A DNA stretch of 47,799 nt from Alistipes sp. (GTDB taxonomy: Bacteria > Bacteroidota > Bacteroidia > Bacteroidales > Rikenellaceae): assembly GCA_017555695.1 (NCBI GenBank), contig JAFZFX010000046.1, forward strand, positions 1-47,799, in the 5' to 3' direction. The notes below the pieces were generated by a model. It worked only from the letters and a program-made list of their open reading frames with translations. It had not been told where the DNA came from and ran no database searches. A program made the position numbers and the translations under genes. Positions 13,503 to 23,195 of the stretch are shown one piece after another (the stretch's first letter is position 1; each line of letters opens with the position of its first letter).

Positions 13503-13527
13503 TTCGATTTCGGATAACACAAATAAA

Positions 13528-13558
13528 ACCGCTTTGGCAAAAGCCAAGGCGGTTTTTT
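13528..13558 (+). terminator. terminator after oxidoreductase copy 1
   Basis: The stem ccgctttggc / gccaaggcgg with loop aaaa is followed by six T. The preceding 25 bases from the stop codon are shared almost exactly with the terminator region of copy 2. Confidence 0.88.
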
Positions 13559-13739: not shown

Positions 13740-15053
13740 ATGAGCACAAAGTTTTCTCGTTTGGACTTCTTGCGTATGTCAGCCGCAGGAGCCGCGACTT
13801 CTTTGGTTTTCCCGACTATGGCAAAAGAGGCTATGGCACCTAAGGAGACAAAAAAGAATGACGCAAACGACCTTATCAACATCGGTTTCATCGGTTTGGG
13901 CCAGCAGGCTATGCACCTTCTGGATGGTTTTATCCGTCTTCCGGGTGTTCGCGTAGTTGCGGGTTGCGATGTTTACGATATCAAGCGTAACCGCTTCGAG
14001 AAATGGACTAACTACTATTATGCTGAGCAGGGTATCAAGCACAAGGTTGATATGTACATCCGATTCGAGGAGTTGTTGGCTCGCGAGGATGTAGATGCTG
14101 TTGTTATCGCTACTCCCGACCACCAGCACGCTCGTATCGCTATCGCTGCTTGTAAGGCAGGTAAGGATGTTTACTTGGAGAAGCCCCTTACTTTCACAGT
14201 ATATGAGGGTCAGCGCTTGATCGAGGCTGTTCGCGCTAACAACCGTATCCTCCAGACTGGTAGTATGCAGCGTTCAATGGATGAGTTCATCCACGCCGCT
14301 AACATCGTTCGCGAGGGTAAGTTGGGTAAGATCTCTACAATGTATGCTTACGCAGGTGATGGCCCCAAGCCTTACACATTGCCTAAGCAGGAGGTTCCCG
14401 CTGGTTTGGATTGGGATTTGTGGCTCGGTCCGTTGCCCGCACACCTCCACTACAACCACGAGGTTGTGCCCTTAATCGTAGAGCATGACAACGATGAGTG
14501 CTGGGGTGCTTGGCGTTGGTATAAGGGCCTCGGTGGTGGCTTTACTACAGACTGGGGCGCACATATGTTCGACATCGGTCAGTGGATGATTGGTAAGGAC
14601 TTGTCTGGTCCTACTGAGATTTTGCCTCCTTCAGCAAGTTTGCACCGCGTGCTTACTTACCGCTACGACAATGGTATCGAGATGGTACACAAGGATGTAG
14701 GTTACGGCCAGGCTGTTAAGGTTGTCGGTGAGAATGGTTGGATTATGGTTACTCGTGGTAAGTACGAGGCTTCTAGCCCCGACTTGATGCCTCAGGCAGT
14801 TGATCAGAAGGCTGTTTACGAGACGAACCCCGGTCACTATCAGTCATTCTTGAACGCTATCCGTTCACGCCGCGATCCTAATGTGCCCGTTGAGATTGGT
14901 CACAGCTCTTGTACCGTATGTAACATCGGTAATGTGGCTTACGAGTTGGATCGTCCTTTGTCTTGGAATCCTATCGTTCAGAAGTTTATGAACGACGACG
15001 AGGCAAACAAACTGTTGCACTACGAGTATCGCGCTCCTTACACTCTGGAGTAA
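13740..15053 (+). CDS. Gfo/Idh/MocA family oxidoreductase, tandem copy 2
   Basis: This 437-residue paralogue of the preceding gene has the same length and layout: pseudo-Tat leader, GFIGLGQQA Rossmann motif, DVYLEKPLTF and the TTDWGAHMFD segment. Differences cluster at residues 32-40, 63-68, 88-107, in the 240s and around 350-360, leaving the nucleotide-binding core and most of the substrate domain unchanged. That suggests two related substrates or simply gene dosage. Codon use shows the same bias to T-ending codons. Gene-specific promoter and terminator copies mean the duplication carried its regulatory DNA with it. The exact substrate is unknown, and the GH109-like alternative applies here too. 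Confidence 0.88.
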   Translation: MSTKFSRLDFLRMSAAGAATSLVFPTMAKEAMAPKETKKNDANDLINIGFIGLGQQAMHLLDGFIRLPGVRVVAGCDVYDIKRNRFEKWTNYYYAEQGIKHKVDMYIRFEELLAREDVDAVVIATPDHQHARIAIAACKAGKDVYLEKPLTFTVYEGQRLIEAVRANNRILQTGSMQRSMDEFIHAANIVREGKLGKISTMYAYAGDGPKPYTLPKQEVPAGLDWDLWLGPLPAHLHYNHEVVPLIVEHDNDECWGAWRWYKGLGGGFTTDWGAHMFDIGQWMIGKDLSGPTEILPPSASLHRVLTYRYDNGIEMVHKDVGYGQAVKVVGENGWIMVTRGKYEASSPDLMPQAVDQKAVYETNPGHYQSFLNAIRSRRDPNVPVEIGHSSCTVCNIGNVAYELDRPLSWNPIVQKFMNDDEANKLLHYEYRAPYTLE

Positions 15054-15077
15054 TTCGATTTCGGATAACACAAATAA

Positions 15078-15106
15078 AACCGCTTTGGCAATGCCAGAGC
15101 GGTTTT
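15078..15106 (+). terminator. terminator after oxidoreductase copy 2
   Basis: The stem ccgctttggc / gccagagcgg with a 3-base loop is followed by ttttattg. The A-rich 5' flank (aaataaaa) could also let it serve the convergent TonB receptor gene. Confidence 0.82.
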
Positions 15107-15138
15107 ATTGTTTATTGCAGTGATGCCGACTGTCAGAC

Positions 15139-18234: not shown

Positions 18235-18873
18235 ATGAAAAAGTACATATTTTCAGCCCTCGCGCTGCTCTTCGCCGCAACATCGTGCGACGGCATTTCG
18301 CAGAACTCATCTAACGACTACCCCAACGAGGTTATCGAGGCTATTATGACTCGCCGTAGCGTGCGCTCTTACAACGACGAGCCCATTGCCGACGAGATTA
18401 TGGATAAGATTCTGGAGTGCGGTATTCACGCTCCCAACGGAATGAACGCCCAGCGCTGGGAGGTGAGAGTTGTAAAGTCGCAGGAGTGGATCAAAGACGC
18501 TACCGAGGCTTGGAAGAACTCTATGCCCGCCGACTCACCTATGGCAAAGCAGTTCGAGGATCCCTCGTTCAAAAATATGTTCCGCAACGCCACTTCGGTG
18601 GTATTCATTGCACACCGTCCTGGTCCCTGCTCGCAGATTGACTGCGGTCTGATGGCGGGTAATATGATGCTGGCGGCAAAGTCATTCGGCATCTCGTCGG
18701 TATGTATGATGGGCCCCATCGGTTTCTTCTCGACAGAGGCGGGCAAGCCCTTCCGTGAGACACTTGCACTCCCCGATGGTTATGAGTTGCTGATTTGCGT
18801 GGGTATGGGTTACTCTGACGAAACACCTGAGACGCCCGAGCGTCACTACTCGAAGGTGAAATATGTAAAATAG
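18235..18873 (+). CDS. nitroreductase family lipoprotein
   Basis: This 212-residue FMN-dependent nitroreductase-fold protein carries a lipoprotein signal (MKKYIFSALALLFAATSC, Cys18 in the lipobox). RRSVRSY and APNGMNAQRW are the usual FMN-binding segments. The C-terminal ETPERHYSKVKYV block is family-typical. Export of a flavin oxidoreductase is unusual, because cytosolic nitroreductases get reducing power from NAD(P)H. A periplasmic form would need another donor or pre-bound cofactor. It lies 25 bases after the LuxR-type regulator and is probably co-transcribed with it. A link to reduction of the receptor's ligand (iron chelate or corrinoid-like) is conceivable but unproven. Confidence 0.85.
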   Translation: MKKYIFSALALLFAATSCDGISQNSSNDYPNEVIEAIMTRRSVRSYNDEPIADEIMDKILECGIHAPNGMNAQRWEVRVVKSQEWIKDATEAWKNSMPADSPMAKQFEDPSFKNMFRNATSVVFIAHRPGPCSQIDCGLMAGNMMLAAKSFGISSVCMMGPIGFFSTEAGKPFRETLALPDGYELLICVGMGYSDETPETPERHYSKVKYVK

Positions 18874-18912
18874 CGACAAACTAATTTTTACATCAAATAC
18901 TTGCTCCGATAT

Positions 18913-18943
18913 TTTGAAATATCATCTAATTGGAATATATTTG
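18913..18943 (+). promoter_or_regulatory. promoter of the pheA attenuator and operon
   Basis: TTTG at 18913-18916, 19 bases, then TATATTTG at 18936-18943: a full match to TTTG-N19-TAnnTTTG. Transcription would start near 18950. That gives a leader of about 200 bases before pheA, with the small Phe/Tyr-rich ORF beginning about 65 bases in. Confidence 0.78.
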
Positions 18944-19014
18944 TATCATCGTTCATCGGGATTGAGATTCTGTTTTGAACGAAAAACAAATTAAACATTA
19001 AAGAGTAAATAAAA

Positions 19015-19080
19015 ATGGGTTTCTTCTTTTATAAGCGATTTTACTACTTCCGTGCGAACGGTCAGGATGTCGTATGCTAA
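19015..19080 (+). CDS. Phe/Tyr-rich leader peptide of an attenuator (21 residues)
   Basis: The small ORF runs from ATG 19015 to TAA 19080. After Met-Gly it reads FFFYKRFYYF, so eight of codons 3-12 are Phe (five) or Tyr (three). It then continues RANGQDVVC. It lies between a strong promoter and an intrinsic terminator and directly precedes prephenate dehydratase, aminotransferase and prephenate dehydrogenase genes. This is what is expected of a leader peptide whose slow translation during Phe or Tyr shortage prevents termination. No Shine-Dalgarno is seen, as for most genes here. A nine-codon ORF (MKMLSLMLY) starts right after the stop, at 19081, and ends at 19110 on the foot of the terminator. 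Whether it is translated by reinitiation is unknown. Confidence 0.85.
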   Translation: MGFFFYKRFYYFRANGQDVVC

Positions 19081-19118
19081 ATGAAGATGCTTTCATTGAT
19101 GTTATATTAATCCTGACC
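19060..19118 (+). promoter_or_regulatory. antiterminator pairing of the Phe/Tyr attenuator
   Basis: ggtcaggat at 19060-19068, inside codons 16-18 of the leader ORF, is identical to the 3' arm of the terminator at 19128-19136. It can therefore pair with atcctgacc at 19110-19118 and sequester the terminator's 5' arm. A small 6-bp hairpin (19080-19085 with 19092-19097) would sit in the intervening loop. A ribosome finishing at the stop codon 19078-19080 covers 19060-19068 and lets the terminator form. One stalled at the early Phe/Tyr codons leaves the segment free. I found no clear 'strand 1' that would sequester it otherwise, apart from a 4-bp stem with a GCGA loop at 19050-19061. Confidence 0.75.
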
Positions 19119-19142
19119 TTAACTTGAGGTCAGGATTTTTTT
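19109..19142 (+). terminator. intrinsic terminator of the Phe/Tyr attenuator
   Basis: A perfect 11-bp stem (aatcctgacct at 19109-19119 with aggtcaggatt at 19127-19137) has a 7-base loop. Seven T follow at 19136-19142, then T6 after one G. It ends eleven bases before the pheA start, with no gene end upstream that needs it, so its role is regulatory. Confidence 0.9.
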
Positions 19143-19153
19143 GTTTTTTAACG

Positions 19154-19963
19154 ATGCAAAAGATTGCAATACAAGGATACGAAGGTTGTTTCCACCACAT
19201 TGCGGCCATACAGTACTTTGGCCGCGACATCGAGATTCTGCCCTGCGACACCTTCCGCGAGGTGGCCGCGATGGTCAAGTCGAAGAAGGCCGATATGGGT
19301 ATGATGGCTATCGAGAACTCTATCGCAGGCTCTATCATCCCCAACTACAGCATCTTGCAAGATACCAACCTGCAGGTGGCGGGTGAGGTTTATCTGCCCA
19401 TCAAGCAGAATCTGATGGTGTTGCCCGATGTCGAGTTGGAGGATATCCGCGAGGTGGAGTCACACTCTATGGCGCTATTGCAGTGCATAGACTATCTGGA
19501 CAATCACCAGTGGAAACTCATCGAGTCGGAGGATACCGCCTTGAGTGCCCGTAACATTGCCGAGAAGGGTCTGCGCCACACCGCAGCCATAGCCAGCGAA
19601 CTTGCGGCCGAGATGTTCGGACTGAAGATTATCGCTCCCGAAATCAACTCAATCAAGAGCAACTACACCCGTTTTATGGTGCTCAAGCGCTACGACCACG
19701 ACATCGACCCCAACGCCAACAAAGCCTCGCTCTACTTCAAGGTCGAGCACGAGGAGGGTTCTTTGCTGAAGGCACTGGCACAGTTGCAGGATATCAACCT
19801 CTCGAAGTTGCAGTCGTACCCCATCCCCAGCGAGCCGTGGCACTACCTGTTCCACATCGACCTGGAGTTCAAGTGCCTGGACGACTACATCAACAACCTC
19901 AACCGCTTGCAGAGTGCCACCAAGGAGGTGCATGTCTACGGAGTTTACCGCAGCGGCAAATAG
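19154..19963 (+). CDS. pheA: prephenate dehydratase
   Basis: It converts prephenate to phenylpyruvate, the Phe branch point. The 269 residues comprise a periplasmic-binding-like catalytic domain (1-178) with IENSIAGS (53-60) and the catalytic Thr172 in the TRF motif (172-174). An ACT regulatory domain follows (about 190-265; GSLLKALAQL, then LSKLQSYPIPS where the classical ESRP motif would be). There is no chorismate mutase domain, which here is fused to DAHP synthase three genes on. The start is the ATG at 19154. An in-frame TTG further upstream lies inside the terminator hairpin and cannot be the start in a regulated mRNA. It is the first structural gene of the attenuated operon, followed by the aminotransferase after 57 bases. 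Confidence 0.95.
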   Translation: MQKIAIQGYEGCFHHIAAIQYFGRDIEILPCDTFREVAAMVKSKKADMGMMAIENSIAGSIIPNYSILQDTNLQVAGEVYLPIKQNLMVLPDVELEDIREVESHSMALLQCIDYLDNHQWKLIESEDTALSARNIAEKGLRHTAAIASELAAEMFGLKIIAPEINSIKSNYTRFMVLKRYDHDIDPNANKASLYFKVEHEEGSLLKALAQLQDINLSKLQSYPIPSEPWHYLFHIDLEFKCLDDYINNLNRLQSATKEVHVYGVYRSGK

Positions 19964-20020: not shown

Positions 20021-21199
20021 ATGGCAAAAGTTCAAATCACTCCCTCGCACCGTATGGATAGCATCAAGGAGTATTACTTTTCAAAGAAGAACCGCGAGAT
20101 AGCCGAGTTGCGCAAGGCTGGCCGCGACATCATCAGCTTGGGTATCGGTAGCCCCGATATGCCCCCTGCACAGGCCGTTATCGACCGTTTGGCAAAAGAG
20201 GCACAGCGCCCCGATGTACACGCCTACCAGCCCTACAACGGTAGCGAATTGTTGCGTCAGGCTTACGCCGACTGGTACAAGAAGTGGTACAATGTAGAGT
20301 TGGACCCCAAGTCTGAGGTTCTGCCTCTGCTCGGCTCAAAGGAGGGTATCGTACACATCTGTATGGCATTCCTCGACGAGGGCGACAAGGTGTTGGTTCC
20401 CAACCCTGGCTACCCCACTTACCGTGCAGCCGTGACTTTGGCAGGTGGTGAGGTTATGGAGTACCGCCTCAACGCAGCCAACGGCTTCTACCCCAACTTC
20501 GAGGAGATTGAGAAGGAGGATTTGAGCAAGGTGAAGTTGATGTTCGTTAACTACCCCAATATGCCTACGGGTACACACCCCACAGTTGAGTTGTTCGAGA
20601 AGCTGGTTGAGTTTGCAGGCAAGCACAACATCCTGCTCGTTCACGACAACCCCTACAGCTTTGTTCGTAACAACCTCCAGTTGAGCATCCTCAACATCGA
20701 GGGCGCAAAGGATGTTGCCATCGAGATGAACTCAACAAGTAAGGGTCACTCAATGGCCGGTTGGCGTGTAGGTGTTGTTGCGGGTCGTGCCGACATCGTT
20801 AGCGACATCCTCCGTTTCAAGAGTAATATGGACTCTGGTATGTTCTACCCCGTACAGGCTGCTGCTGCCGAGGCTTTGGCTCTGGGCAACGAGTGGTTTG
20901 ACGAGTTGAACTCTACATACTATGCCCGCGAGGCTCGTGGTTACGAGTTGCTCGATGCTCTCGGATGCGACTATGTTAAGGGTCAGGCTGGTCTGTTCGT
21001 TTGGGCCGCTATGCCCGAGAACTTCGACGGCGACTGCTTCGCCTTCTCTGACAAGGTACTCAACGAGTGCGATGTATTCGTGACTCCTGGTGGTATCTTC
21101 GGTAGCGAGGGTAACAAGTACATCCGTATCTCACTCTGTATGCCCGAGGCTCGTCTGGCCGAGGCTGCCGAGCGTGTTAAGAGCCGTTTCGTAAAGTAA
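20021..21199 (+). CDS. class I/II aminotransferase, likely for aromatic amino acids
   Basis: This is a pyridoxal-phosphate enzyme of fold type I, 392 residues. Visible are SLGIGSPDMPP near the N-terminus, NYPNMPTG (177-184), the Asp in HDNPYSF, and STSKGHSMAGWRVG with the PLP lysine at 241. It resembles the LL-diaminopimelate/aspartate aminotransferase branch. Its position between pheA and tyrA in an attenuated Phe/Tyr operon makes transamination of phenylpyruvate and hydroxyphenylpyruvate (or prephenate) the likely job. The specificity is inference from context. The gap to tyrA is 11 bases. Confidence 0.9.
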   Translation: MAKVQITPSHRMDSIKEYYFSKKNREIAELRKAGRDIISLGIGSPDMPPAQAVIDRLAKEAQRPDVHAYQPYNGSELLRQAYADWYKKWYNVELDPKSEVLPLLGSKEGIVHICMAFLDEGDKVLVPNPGYPTYRAAVTLAGGEVMEYRLNAANGFYPNFEEIEKEDLSKVKLMFVNYPNMPTGTHPTVELFEKLVEFAGKHNILLVHDNPYSFVRNNLQLSILNIEGAKDVAIEMNSTSKGHSMAGWRVGVVAGRADIVSDILRFKSNMDSGMFYPVQAAAAEALALGNEWFDELNSTYYAREARGYELLDALGCDYVKGQAGLFVWAAMPENFDGDCFAFSDKVLNECDVFVTPGGIFGSEGNKYIRISLCMPEARLAEAAERVKSRFVK

Positions 21200-21210: not shown

Positions 21211-22053
21211 ATGAAAGCGACCGTCATAGGTTTGGGTCTTATTGGTGGCTCTTTTGCATTGAGTCTTAAGCAGCAGGGACTGTGTGACGAGGTAACAGGC
21301 ATCGAGCACTCGGAGAAGAACGCCCGCAAGGCGTTGGAGTTGGGACTCGTTGAGCGCATCGTAACGCTCGATGAGGCTATCGCCGAGAGCGACTTGATTG
21401 TGCTTGCCACACCCGTCGATACGCTGCCCATAATGGCTACGAAGATACTCAACCGCATAAATCACAAGCAGATTGTGATGGATATGGGCTCCACCAAGCA
21501 AGAGTTGTGCGAGGTTACGATGATGCACCCCCGCAGAGGGCGTCTTGTGGCTACGCACCCTATGTGGGGTACCGAGAACAGTGGTCCCGAGGCTGCCGAG
21601 CGCAACGCCTTCAGTGGCCGCACGGTGGTTATCTGCGAGCGCGAACTCTCCGACGAGGATGCGTTACAGACCGTGGAGAGAATCTACAACTGCATAGGTA
21701 TGCCCATACGCTATATGTCGGCCGAGGAGCAAGATACACACTGCGCCTATGTTTCGCACATTTCGCATATCACCTCGTTCGCGCTGGCTCTGACGGTGTT
21801 GGAGAAGGAGCGCGAGGAGGAGCATATCTTCGACCTGGCTGCTGGAGGTTTTGAGAGTACGGTGCGTCTGGCAAAGAGTCTGCCGCAGACTTGGGCCCCG
21901 ATTTTCCTGGGCAACAAGTACAACATCCTGGATGTGTTGCGCGAGCATATACACCAGTTGCAGATTCTGCGCCGTATGATCGAACGCGACGACAGAGATG
22001 GTCTTATCGAGGCTATGCAGCGAGCGAACAAGATTAGAGATATCTTGAAGTAG
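21211..22053 (+). CDS. tyrA: prephenate dehydrogenase
   Basis: It oxidatively decarboxylates prephenate (or arogenate) to the Tyr precursor using NAD(P). The 280 residues begin with the Rossmann motif VIGLGLIGGS (5-14). DMGSTKQEL (91-99) and the active-site HPMWGTENSG (116-125) follow, with the helical dimerisation domain after about 160. There is no ACT domain and no fused chorismate mutase. It is the third structural gene after the attenuator. A hairpin terminator follows within ten bases of the stop, so it may end the first transcription unit. Confidence 0.94.
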   Translation: MKATVIGLGLIGGSFALSLKQQGLCDEVTGIEHSEKNARKALELGLVERIVTLDEAIAESDLIVLATPVDTLPIMATKILNRINHKQIVMDMGSTKQELCEVTMMHPRRGRLVATHPMWGTENSGPEAAERNAFSGRTVVICERELSDEDALQTVERIYNCIGMPIRYMSAEEQDTHCAYVSHISHITSFALALTVLEKEREEEHIFDLAAGGFESTVRLAKSLPQTWAPIFLGNKYNILDVLREHIHQLQILRRMIERDDRDGLIEAMQRANKIRDILK

Positions 22054-22124: not shown

Positions 22125-23195
22125 ATGGGAAGATTTATACTTGGGGAGAAGCGTCCCCTAATCATTGCGGGTCCGTGTAGTGCTGAGACCCGCGAGCAGA
22201 CTATCGAGACAACGATGGCGTTGGCTCGTTCGGGTCGTGTAGATGTAATTCGCGCGGGCATCTGGAAACCCCGCACCAACCCTGGCACATTCGAGGGCAT
22301 CGGCGAGATTGGTCTTGACTGGCTCAACGAGGTGAAGCAGGCCACAGGTTTGCCCATCGCTGTAGAGGTAGCAAACCGCGCCCATGTGGAGTGCGCCTTG
22401 AAGCACGGCGTAGATATCTTGTGGATTGGCGCGCGTACAACAGTATCGCCCTTCGCCATTCAGGAGATTGCCGAGACTCTGCACGACAACAAGGAGGTTA
22501 CAGTGCTGATTAAGAACCCTATGACACCCGATATCGGCCTTTGGGCTGGTGCCGTGAATCGCCTCGTAAATGAGGGCGTTCCGCAGGAGAACATCGGTCT
22601 GATTCATCGTGGATTCTCATACTTCGGTCAGAGCAAACTGCGTAACCCGCCGATGTGGCATATGATTTTCGAGATGCGTAGCCGCTTCCCCGATATGGTG
22701 ATGATTTGCGACCCGTCGCACATCTGTGGTTGCCGTCCGCTGTTGCAGGGTATCGCCCAGCAGGCTGCCGACCTCTGCTACGACGGCGTGATGATCGAGA
22801 GCCACTGCAACCCCGACAAGGCGTGGAGCGACGCTTCGCAGCAGGTTACACCGCAGGACTGTCTCACGCTGATTGACAACTTGATGTGGCGTGCCAAGAC
22901 CGCTAACGACCCCGAGTTCAATAGCGAGCTGAACATCTGCCGCCGCCAGATTGACCAGATTGATGCCGAGCTCTTCGACTTGCTCAGCCAACGTATGAAG
23001 ACTGCCGACAAGATTGGTCACATCAAGAAGGCCAACAATGTAGCCATCCTGCAGAGCAACCGTTGGGAGGATATCTGCCGACGAATGTTATCGCTCACCC
23101 GCGGAATGGGTCTCAGCGAGGAGTTTGTGCGCACCGTACTGGAGGCCATCCACCTCGAGAGTATCAACCGCCAGAACAATATTATGAATAAGTAG
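22125..23195 (+). CDS. bifunctional DAHP synthase / chorismate mutase
   Basis: This is a fusion of two steps of aromatic biosynthesis, 356 residues. The N-terminal part (about 1-262) is a type I-beta 3-deoxy-7-phosphoheptulonate synthase, with GPCS (16-19), KPRTNP (48-53), IGARTTVS (101-108), CDPSHICG and ESHCNPDKA. The C-terminal part (about 267-352) is an AroQ-type chorismate mutase, with RRQIDQIDAELFDLLSQRM and the IGHIKKANNVAI segment. Bacteroidota commonly have this order, and the mutase domain can serve as an allosteric sensor of prephenate or chorismate. It follows tyrA on the same strand but beyond a terminator, so its expression depends on read-through or an unrecognised promoter. 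Confidence 0.94.
   Translation: MGRFILGEKRPLIIAGPCSAETREQTIETTMALARSGRVDVIRAGIWKPRTNPGTFEGIGEIGLDWLNEVKQATGLPIAVEVANRAHVECALKHGVDILWIGARTTVSPFAIQEIAETLHDNKEVTVLIKNPMTPDIGLWAGAVNRLVNEGVPQENIGLIHRGFSYFGQSKLRNPPMWHMIFEMRSRFPDMVMICDPSHICGCRPLLQGIAQQAADLCYDGVMIESHCNPDKAWSDASQQVTPQDCLTLIDNLMWRAKTANDPEFNSELNICRRQIDQIDAELFDLLSQRMKTADKIGHIKKANNVAILQSNRWEDICRRMLSLTRGMGLSEEFVRTVLEAIHLESINRQNNIMNK

Follow-up and report, generated by a model that had tools for sequence, protein, structure and literature searches.

In Escherichia coli, pheA is preceded by a short leader reading frame rich in codons for the product (pheL, the Phe leader), by alternative helices and by an intrinsic terminator. The enterobacterial ilv and thr leaders carry codons for more than one amino acid, and in Bacteroidetes the Bacteroid-trp motif lies before trp genes. 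That motif is a predicted cis-regulatory element of the group in the cited part of its source (RF01692; PMC2864571). A 2010 paper states, in the passage cited here, that until the case it describes in Firmicutes no leader-peptide system was known beyond Proteobacteria and Actinobacteria (PMC2965389). Bacteroidetes leader genes are handled by distance statistics in the relevant section of PMC4833913, which cites a 2010 attenuation survey, and the long 5' UTRs of B. thetaiotaomicron hold short ORFs reminiscent of leader peptides according to the corresponding text of PMC7366714, in which pheA is unnamed. The closest case comes from Flavobacterium psychrophilum, for which the cited portion of PMC9723704 presents strong indications of leader-peptide attenuation at amino-acid operons and describes a structured 5' element before pheA, kept in Flavobacteriaceae; this element concerns the same phylum and the same gene but is not outright named an attenuator in that portion. 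The first-pass annotation of the DNA studied here had mentioned predicted attenuators in this phylum, and cases at amino-acid operons are indeed in print.

The locus described here lies in a 47,799-nt stretch of DNA (the window). Like pheL-pheA, it combines a product-rich short leader, alternative helices and an intrinsic terminator ahead of pheA, and it is very probably to be read, from its sequence and that of its relatives, as an attenuator. It differs from pheL in its mixed Phe/Tyr codons, in the presence of both products' genes downstream and in a start without Shine-Dalgarno sequence. A single leader whose codons cover more than one amino acid is a feature shared with ilv and thr, which concern other amino acids and genes. 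Bacteroid-trp is likewise a predicted cis-regulatory element of Bacteroidetes, but it has no match to the window and belongs to a different operon. Attenuation in the phylum and the pheA element had already been described; the pheA attenuator, apparently class-wide in extent, adds to these, and no report of a class-wide Phe/Tyr leader was found in the open-licence literature. In comparison with the cited portion of PMC9723704, the Phe/Tyr leader is here traced over order and class, with spacing and pairing measured, and what sequence comparison adds to the published outline is this spread, the fixed spacing, the class-wide covariation and the mixed Phe/Tyr run.

The pheA leader region and its genomic setting

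The source genome (2.18 Mb, 88.46% complete), of which the window is one contig, belongs to Alistipes, placed by NCBI taxonomy in Rikenellaceae, Bacteroidales, Bacteroidia. The best identity of the window's pheA, up to 92%, is to Alistipes metagenome genomes. The features of the locus are the following:

18913-18943, + strand: promoter, TTTG at 18913-18916 and TATATTTG at 18936-18943, with a 19-base spacer
19015-19080, + strand: leader ORF of 21 codons, MGFFFYKRFYYFRANGQDVVC and stop, from its translation and the aromatic leaders of relatives
19035-19073, + strand: 1:2 helix predicted by RNAalifold from 20 sequences, pairing 19035-19039 with 19069-19073, 19044-19045 with 19064-19065 and 19050-19053 with 19058-19061
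19060-19068, + strand: region 2, antiterminator 5' strand GGTCAGGAT, within the leader ORF and identical to 19128-19136
19109-19121, + strand: region 3, terminator 5' arm, of which 19110-19118 can pair with region 2 too
19125-19137, + strand: region 4, terminator 3' arm
19136-19142, + strand: T7 tract of the intrinsic terminator, 11 bases ahead of the pheA ATG (19154)
19154-19963, + strand: pheA, prephenate dehydratase, best family scores below curated cut-offs
20021-21199, + strand: aminotransferase, LL-diaminopimelate aminotransferase-like, scores below curated cut-offs
21211-22053, + strand: tyrA, prephenate dehydrogenase, score above curated cut-off
22125-23195, + strand: DAHP synthase with a C-terminal chorismate mutase part, scores below curated cut-offs

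The promoter, the short ORF, the terminator and the terminator-like segment within the ORF had all been proposed in the first-pass annotation, and each of them withstood closer inspection. Both promoter boxes are present, resemble the Bacteroidota pattern TTTG / TAnnTTTG quoted in the relevant part of PMC7366714, and are fully or almost fully conserved when the 20 nearest sequences are aligned; the upstream ORF ends before them, at 18873. Translation of the leader ORF gives Phe or Tyr eight times in codons 3-12 (19021-19050), with codon 12 as the last Phe codon. The terminator stem (19109-19137) has 11 consecutive Watson-Crick pairs and a loop of 3, and reaches 13 pairs in full with one G-T and one A-T added. 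All 9 bases of region 2 are complementary to 19110-19118; the antiterminator helix (2:3) and the terminator (3:4) share region 3 and are mutually exclusive. The 1:2 helix, predicted from the 20 nearest sequences, spans the control codons and region 2, and would serve as a protector or pause structure. With one of the modeled 5' ends, the terminator 5' arm also pairs with CGGGATT in the window's 5' UTR (18956-18963 with 19109-19117), possibly as an extra fold of this species.

Terminator-pattern sites occur 8 times per strand in the window, and just one, that before pheA, follows a short ORF that starts with ATG and has aromatic residues at 6 or more of 12 codons. Because the arrangement is unique among these sites and recurs in relatives far above shuffles (see below), we do not consider it a product of chance. 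Elsewhere in the window, two strong and similar hairpins (13525-13556 and 15073-15109), each with CCGCTTTGGC in its 5' arm, stand on either side of an oxidoreductase-like ORF (13740-15053).

The leader ORF is presumably translated. Among 166 distinct leaders, with the last ATG ahead of the aromatic run taken as the start, adenine accounts for 59% of bases at -3, 60% at -12 and 36-53% at other positions, and Shine-Dalgarno-like 4-mers precede 4 of the 166 starts. Adenine enrichment at -3, -6 and -11 to -15 before Bacteroidetes genes, correlated with translation efficiency, is cited in the corresponding passage of PMC7366714; the adenines ahead of the leaders would fit their being translated and lend this indirect support. 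It should be noted that in the window an ATG immediately after the leader stop opens a 9-codon mini-ORF (19081-19110) that ends at the foot of the terminator, where reinitiation is possible, and that visual inspection showed ATGs shortly past the leader stop in many of the closest relatives.

As to the genes under control, the first-pass annotation had named pheA, an aminotransferase and tyrA. These do lie downstream, with pheA and tyrA as the first and third genes of the operon, but the operon is probably longer, because the DAHP synthase/chorismate mutase gene comes after tyrA. Between the operon genes, a simple scan found one weak + strand terminator-like site (5 pairs, 21234-21251), which falls within tyrA, and shuffles of the same operon region gave 3.4 such sites with both strands counted. 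The position of the aminotransferase gene suggests an aromatic role for its product. Relatives of the aminotransferase and of TyrA lie near pheA in 32 and 32 of 35 Rikenellaceae loci, 9 and 4 of 29 order loci, and 26 and 16 of 29 phylum-draw loci, and relatives of the DAHP synthase/mutase in 1, 20 and 3 loci of these sets, respectively, all within flanks of 1.5-2 kb that cut off later genes. Operon order therefore varies.

Recurrence of the leader and its pairing among relatives

Upstream regions of pheA were taken from 35 loci of Rikenellaceae records, from 119 genomes of the order (126 with pheA, 119 upstream stretches used besides that of the window) and from 89 regions of a phylum-wide draw (258 genomes with pheA, 29 used as loci together with 60 further stretches). 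The main count comprises 221 regions including the window; a further 20 regions from other classes were scored separately, and 'order', 'class' and 'other classes' are the kinship labels assigned to the genome set. Four loci were left out of the counts: L010 and L104, with 51 and 15 bases of upstream sequence, L219, whose coordinates were off by one base and in which no leader was seen, and L156, which lies before hisG. Leaders were sought in the last 450 bases (fewer at contig ends; 1200 for L031 and L033-L035), and in shuffles of 450 bases.

The short Phe/Tyr ORF does recur in relatives, as the first-pass annotation would have it. In 187 of the 221 regions, which are related and not independent (two pairs share identical upstream sequence), pheA is preceded by a leader that starts with ATG and has Phe, Tyr or Trp (F/Y/W) at 7 or more of 12 codons; among shuffles the count was 15 of 2210, and on antisense strands 1 of 221. 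By kinship, such leaders are found in 30/35 Rikenellaceae (window included), 100/118 other members of the order, 53/58 other members of the class and 4/10 of other classes; scored by Phe and Tyr alone, the same groups give 30/35, 100/118, 50/58 and 4/10. The remaining 34 of the 221 regions fall short of this definition. With any start codon and 6 of 12 codons allowed, a leader is present in 201 of the 221 regions and in 20 there is none; 177 of these 201 leaders are followed by a terminator, and the pattern search found no terminator for the other 24. In four Rikenella-type loci (L031, L033, L034 and L035), the leader and pheA are about 250-700 bases apart, separated by GC-rich sequence, and in 3 of the 4 a terminator comes after the leader. 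Trp was considered as a third sensed amino acid and dropped. It had seemed enriched (46 of 1771 residues inside the runs and 8 of 2237 outside) because the runs were themselves picked by F, Y and W; with runs picked by Phe and Tyr only, Trp makes up 23 of 1853 residues inside and 41 of 3440 outside.

This pattern of conservation bears on what the ORF is for. The end of the peptide is almost invariant within the Alistipes-type group, as might be expected of a working micro-protein, membrane-bound or trans-acting, with the RNA pairings secondary, and a trans role of an attenuator leader peptide is reported for Sinorhizobium in the cited part of PMC7298713. We nevertheless consider a micro-protein very unlikely: the part that is constant in this near group overlaps RNA segments 1 and 2, and over the class the aromatic content of the leader is kept while its sequence and length vary.

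Outside the class, clear aromatic leaders were seen in five genomes (L158, L178, L179, L185 and L229), the last of them from the further 20 regions, which yielded one clear leader (L229) and one doubtful one (L238). In four of the five, pheA is much closer to that of the window than is the pheA of others of their family, which suggests that operon and leader may have been transferred together into these genomes. For L229, the one other genome of its family (L228) is a counter-case, with a similar pheA and no clear leader.

The alternative pairing proposed in the first-pass annotation is conserved as well. In the 177 loci with leader and terminator, the sequence from the first aromatic codon to the terminator was paired with the terminator 5' arm and compared with 200 dinucleotide shuffles; p was at most 0.05 in 150 loci and above this in 27. 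Counted from the first base of the last aromatic codon, region 2 begins 4-18 nt downstream (median 12) in 162 of the 177 loci, versus 628 of 3540 shuffles. In 170 of the 177, the locus's own arm pairs more strongly than the average foreign arm; it ranks within the top 10% of arms in 117 and within the top 5% in 76. Foreign arms make a stringent control, because many arms have a CCYG core in common.

Compensatory changes, another expectation of the first-pass annotation, give a more divided picture. Across the class, changes on both sides of the 2:3 helix do occur. At arm position +4, all four Watson-Crick pairs are found (CG 35, TA 32, GC 19, AT 16, TG 7, GT 1), and both sides vary at positions +2, +3 and +5 too, in 142 anchored loci whose pairs were chosen by the duplex program. 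Among the 20 nearest relatives, by contrast, the helix segments hardly vary and there is almost no covariation: no double change was found in the 2:3 helix, which did not exceed shuffles, and the 1:2 and 3:4 helices have one doubly changed pair each. A mini-hairpin between regions 2 and 3, which had seemed conserved by eye, was dropped, as the p-value of its spacer fold against shuffles was at most 0.05 in 2 of 20 sequences and 3 formed no structure.

Alternative helices by themselves would also fit a switch in which a small molecule, a tRNA or a protein, and not the ribosome, picks the fold (a riboswitch, T-box or binding protein). This we regard as highly improbable. What is constant over the class is the codon run together with its distance from the pairing segment, and a tRNA is the one Rfam hit that reaches gathering score in the window; at that score no covariance model of the attenuator, riboswitch or T-box families or of Bacteroid-trp (RF01692) matches the window, and the 8 matches to the region 18880-19170 at E up to 5 lie far below gathering scores and are of unrelated kinds. 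Least credible of all is a constitutive terminator that insulates pheA from the upstream gene or fixes a low level, with the ORF a chance reading: such terminators may stand just ahead of genes, and an ORF does end upstream, but the conserved promoter sits between that ORF and the leader, aromatic leaders recur far more often than in shuffles, and the antiterminator keeps a fixed distance to the control codons.

In the same genome, a His-rich short ORF (MITMLHIHHYHHHILRKIR) with a strong terminator lies before hisG (L156) and is perhaps a second attenuator; its 2:3 pairing is not above shuffles (p = 0.17). No terminator was found in 860 bases around the match start of ilvB or of homoserine dehydrogenase in this genome, and trpE was not found in it (88.46% complete). 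A search of the genome for a second copy of the pheA element returned none at E ≤ 1, barring a self-match of the terminator in reverse.

A model of the switch

We are confident that the element is a classical ribosome-mediated transcription attenuator, as first proposed; its parts, their conservation, their spacing and their pairing are established here. Based on this we can present the following course of events. Transcription would begin a few bases after 18943, and a ribosome would start on the leader ORF at 19015 with no Shine-Dalgarno sequence to guide it. With charged tRNA-Phe or tRNA-Tyr in short supply, the ribosome would stall between codons 3 and 12, with its leading edge falling short of region 2. 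Region 2, being free, would then pair with region 3 as the latter emerges, the 3:4 terminator would not form in time, and RNA polymerase would read through into pheA, the aminotransferase gene, tyrA and the DAHP synthase/mutase gene. With both charged tRNAs in ample supply, the ribosome would advance a few codons further and mask region 2, the terminator would form, and transcription would end near 19142. Shortage of Phe or Tyr would thus most likely turn the pathway on. Both this response and tight coupling of ribosome and polymerase are what the arrangement would imply.

The position of the switch was modeled by letting the RNA ahead of the ribosome alone fold, with region 4 not yet transcribed. 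For a ribosome placed on codon 3, 6 or 9, the 2:3 helix had a probability near 1; the value fell to 0.71 on codon 12 and to 0 on the tested codons 14-22. With the leading edge varied over 5 positions, it ranged from 0.54 to 1.00 at codon 12, from 0 to 0.66 at codon 13 and from 0 to 0.21 at codon 14. In this model the switch point falls between codons 12 and 14, around the end of the control codons. The spacing of region 2 measured in relatives (4-18 bases, median 12) is roughly the length of RNA that a ribosome covers ahead of its A site, and a stall on the last control codon would therefore just leave the segment free.

Once region 4 is present, the 3:4 helix is preferred in the modeled states (0.71-0.98), and the switch would therefore have to be kinetic, as it is in known attenuators. 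The 1:2 helix of untranslated RNA forms (0.96-0.97) while region 3 is still to be transcribed. Directly after region 3 has appeared, the probability of 2:3 in the untranslated leader varies with the assumed 5' end and is 0.88, 0.53 and 0.00 for transcript starts at 18945, 18950 and 18955, respectively, and once region 4 is added the terminator takes over (0.95-0.97). On this model, an untranslated leader may terminate by default by way of the 1:2 helix.

Implications for the Bacteroidia

We lean towards the view that a single attenuator responding to Phe and Tyr together was in place ahead of pheA at an early stage of Bacteroidia evolution, and that it reached some genomes outside the class along with the operon. 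Leader-peptide attenuation needs a ribosome close behind the polymerase, and in the open-licence literature we found no paper that settles ribosome-polymerase coupling in Bacteroidota. The presence of a leader before most sampled pheA genes of the class, with region 2 at about the reach of a ribosome, is indirect evidence for such coupling, and the pheA leader offers a simple reporter for it in common gut bacteria. The leader also points to a class of short ORFs below the size of routine gene calling. If the ancient, class-wide Phe and Tyr attenuator holds true, ribosome and polymerase would be close enough for attenuation across a large group of bacteria that hardly uses Shine-Dalgarno sequences.
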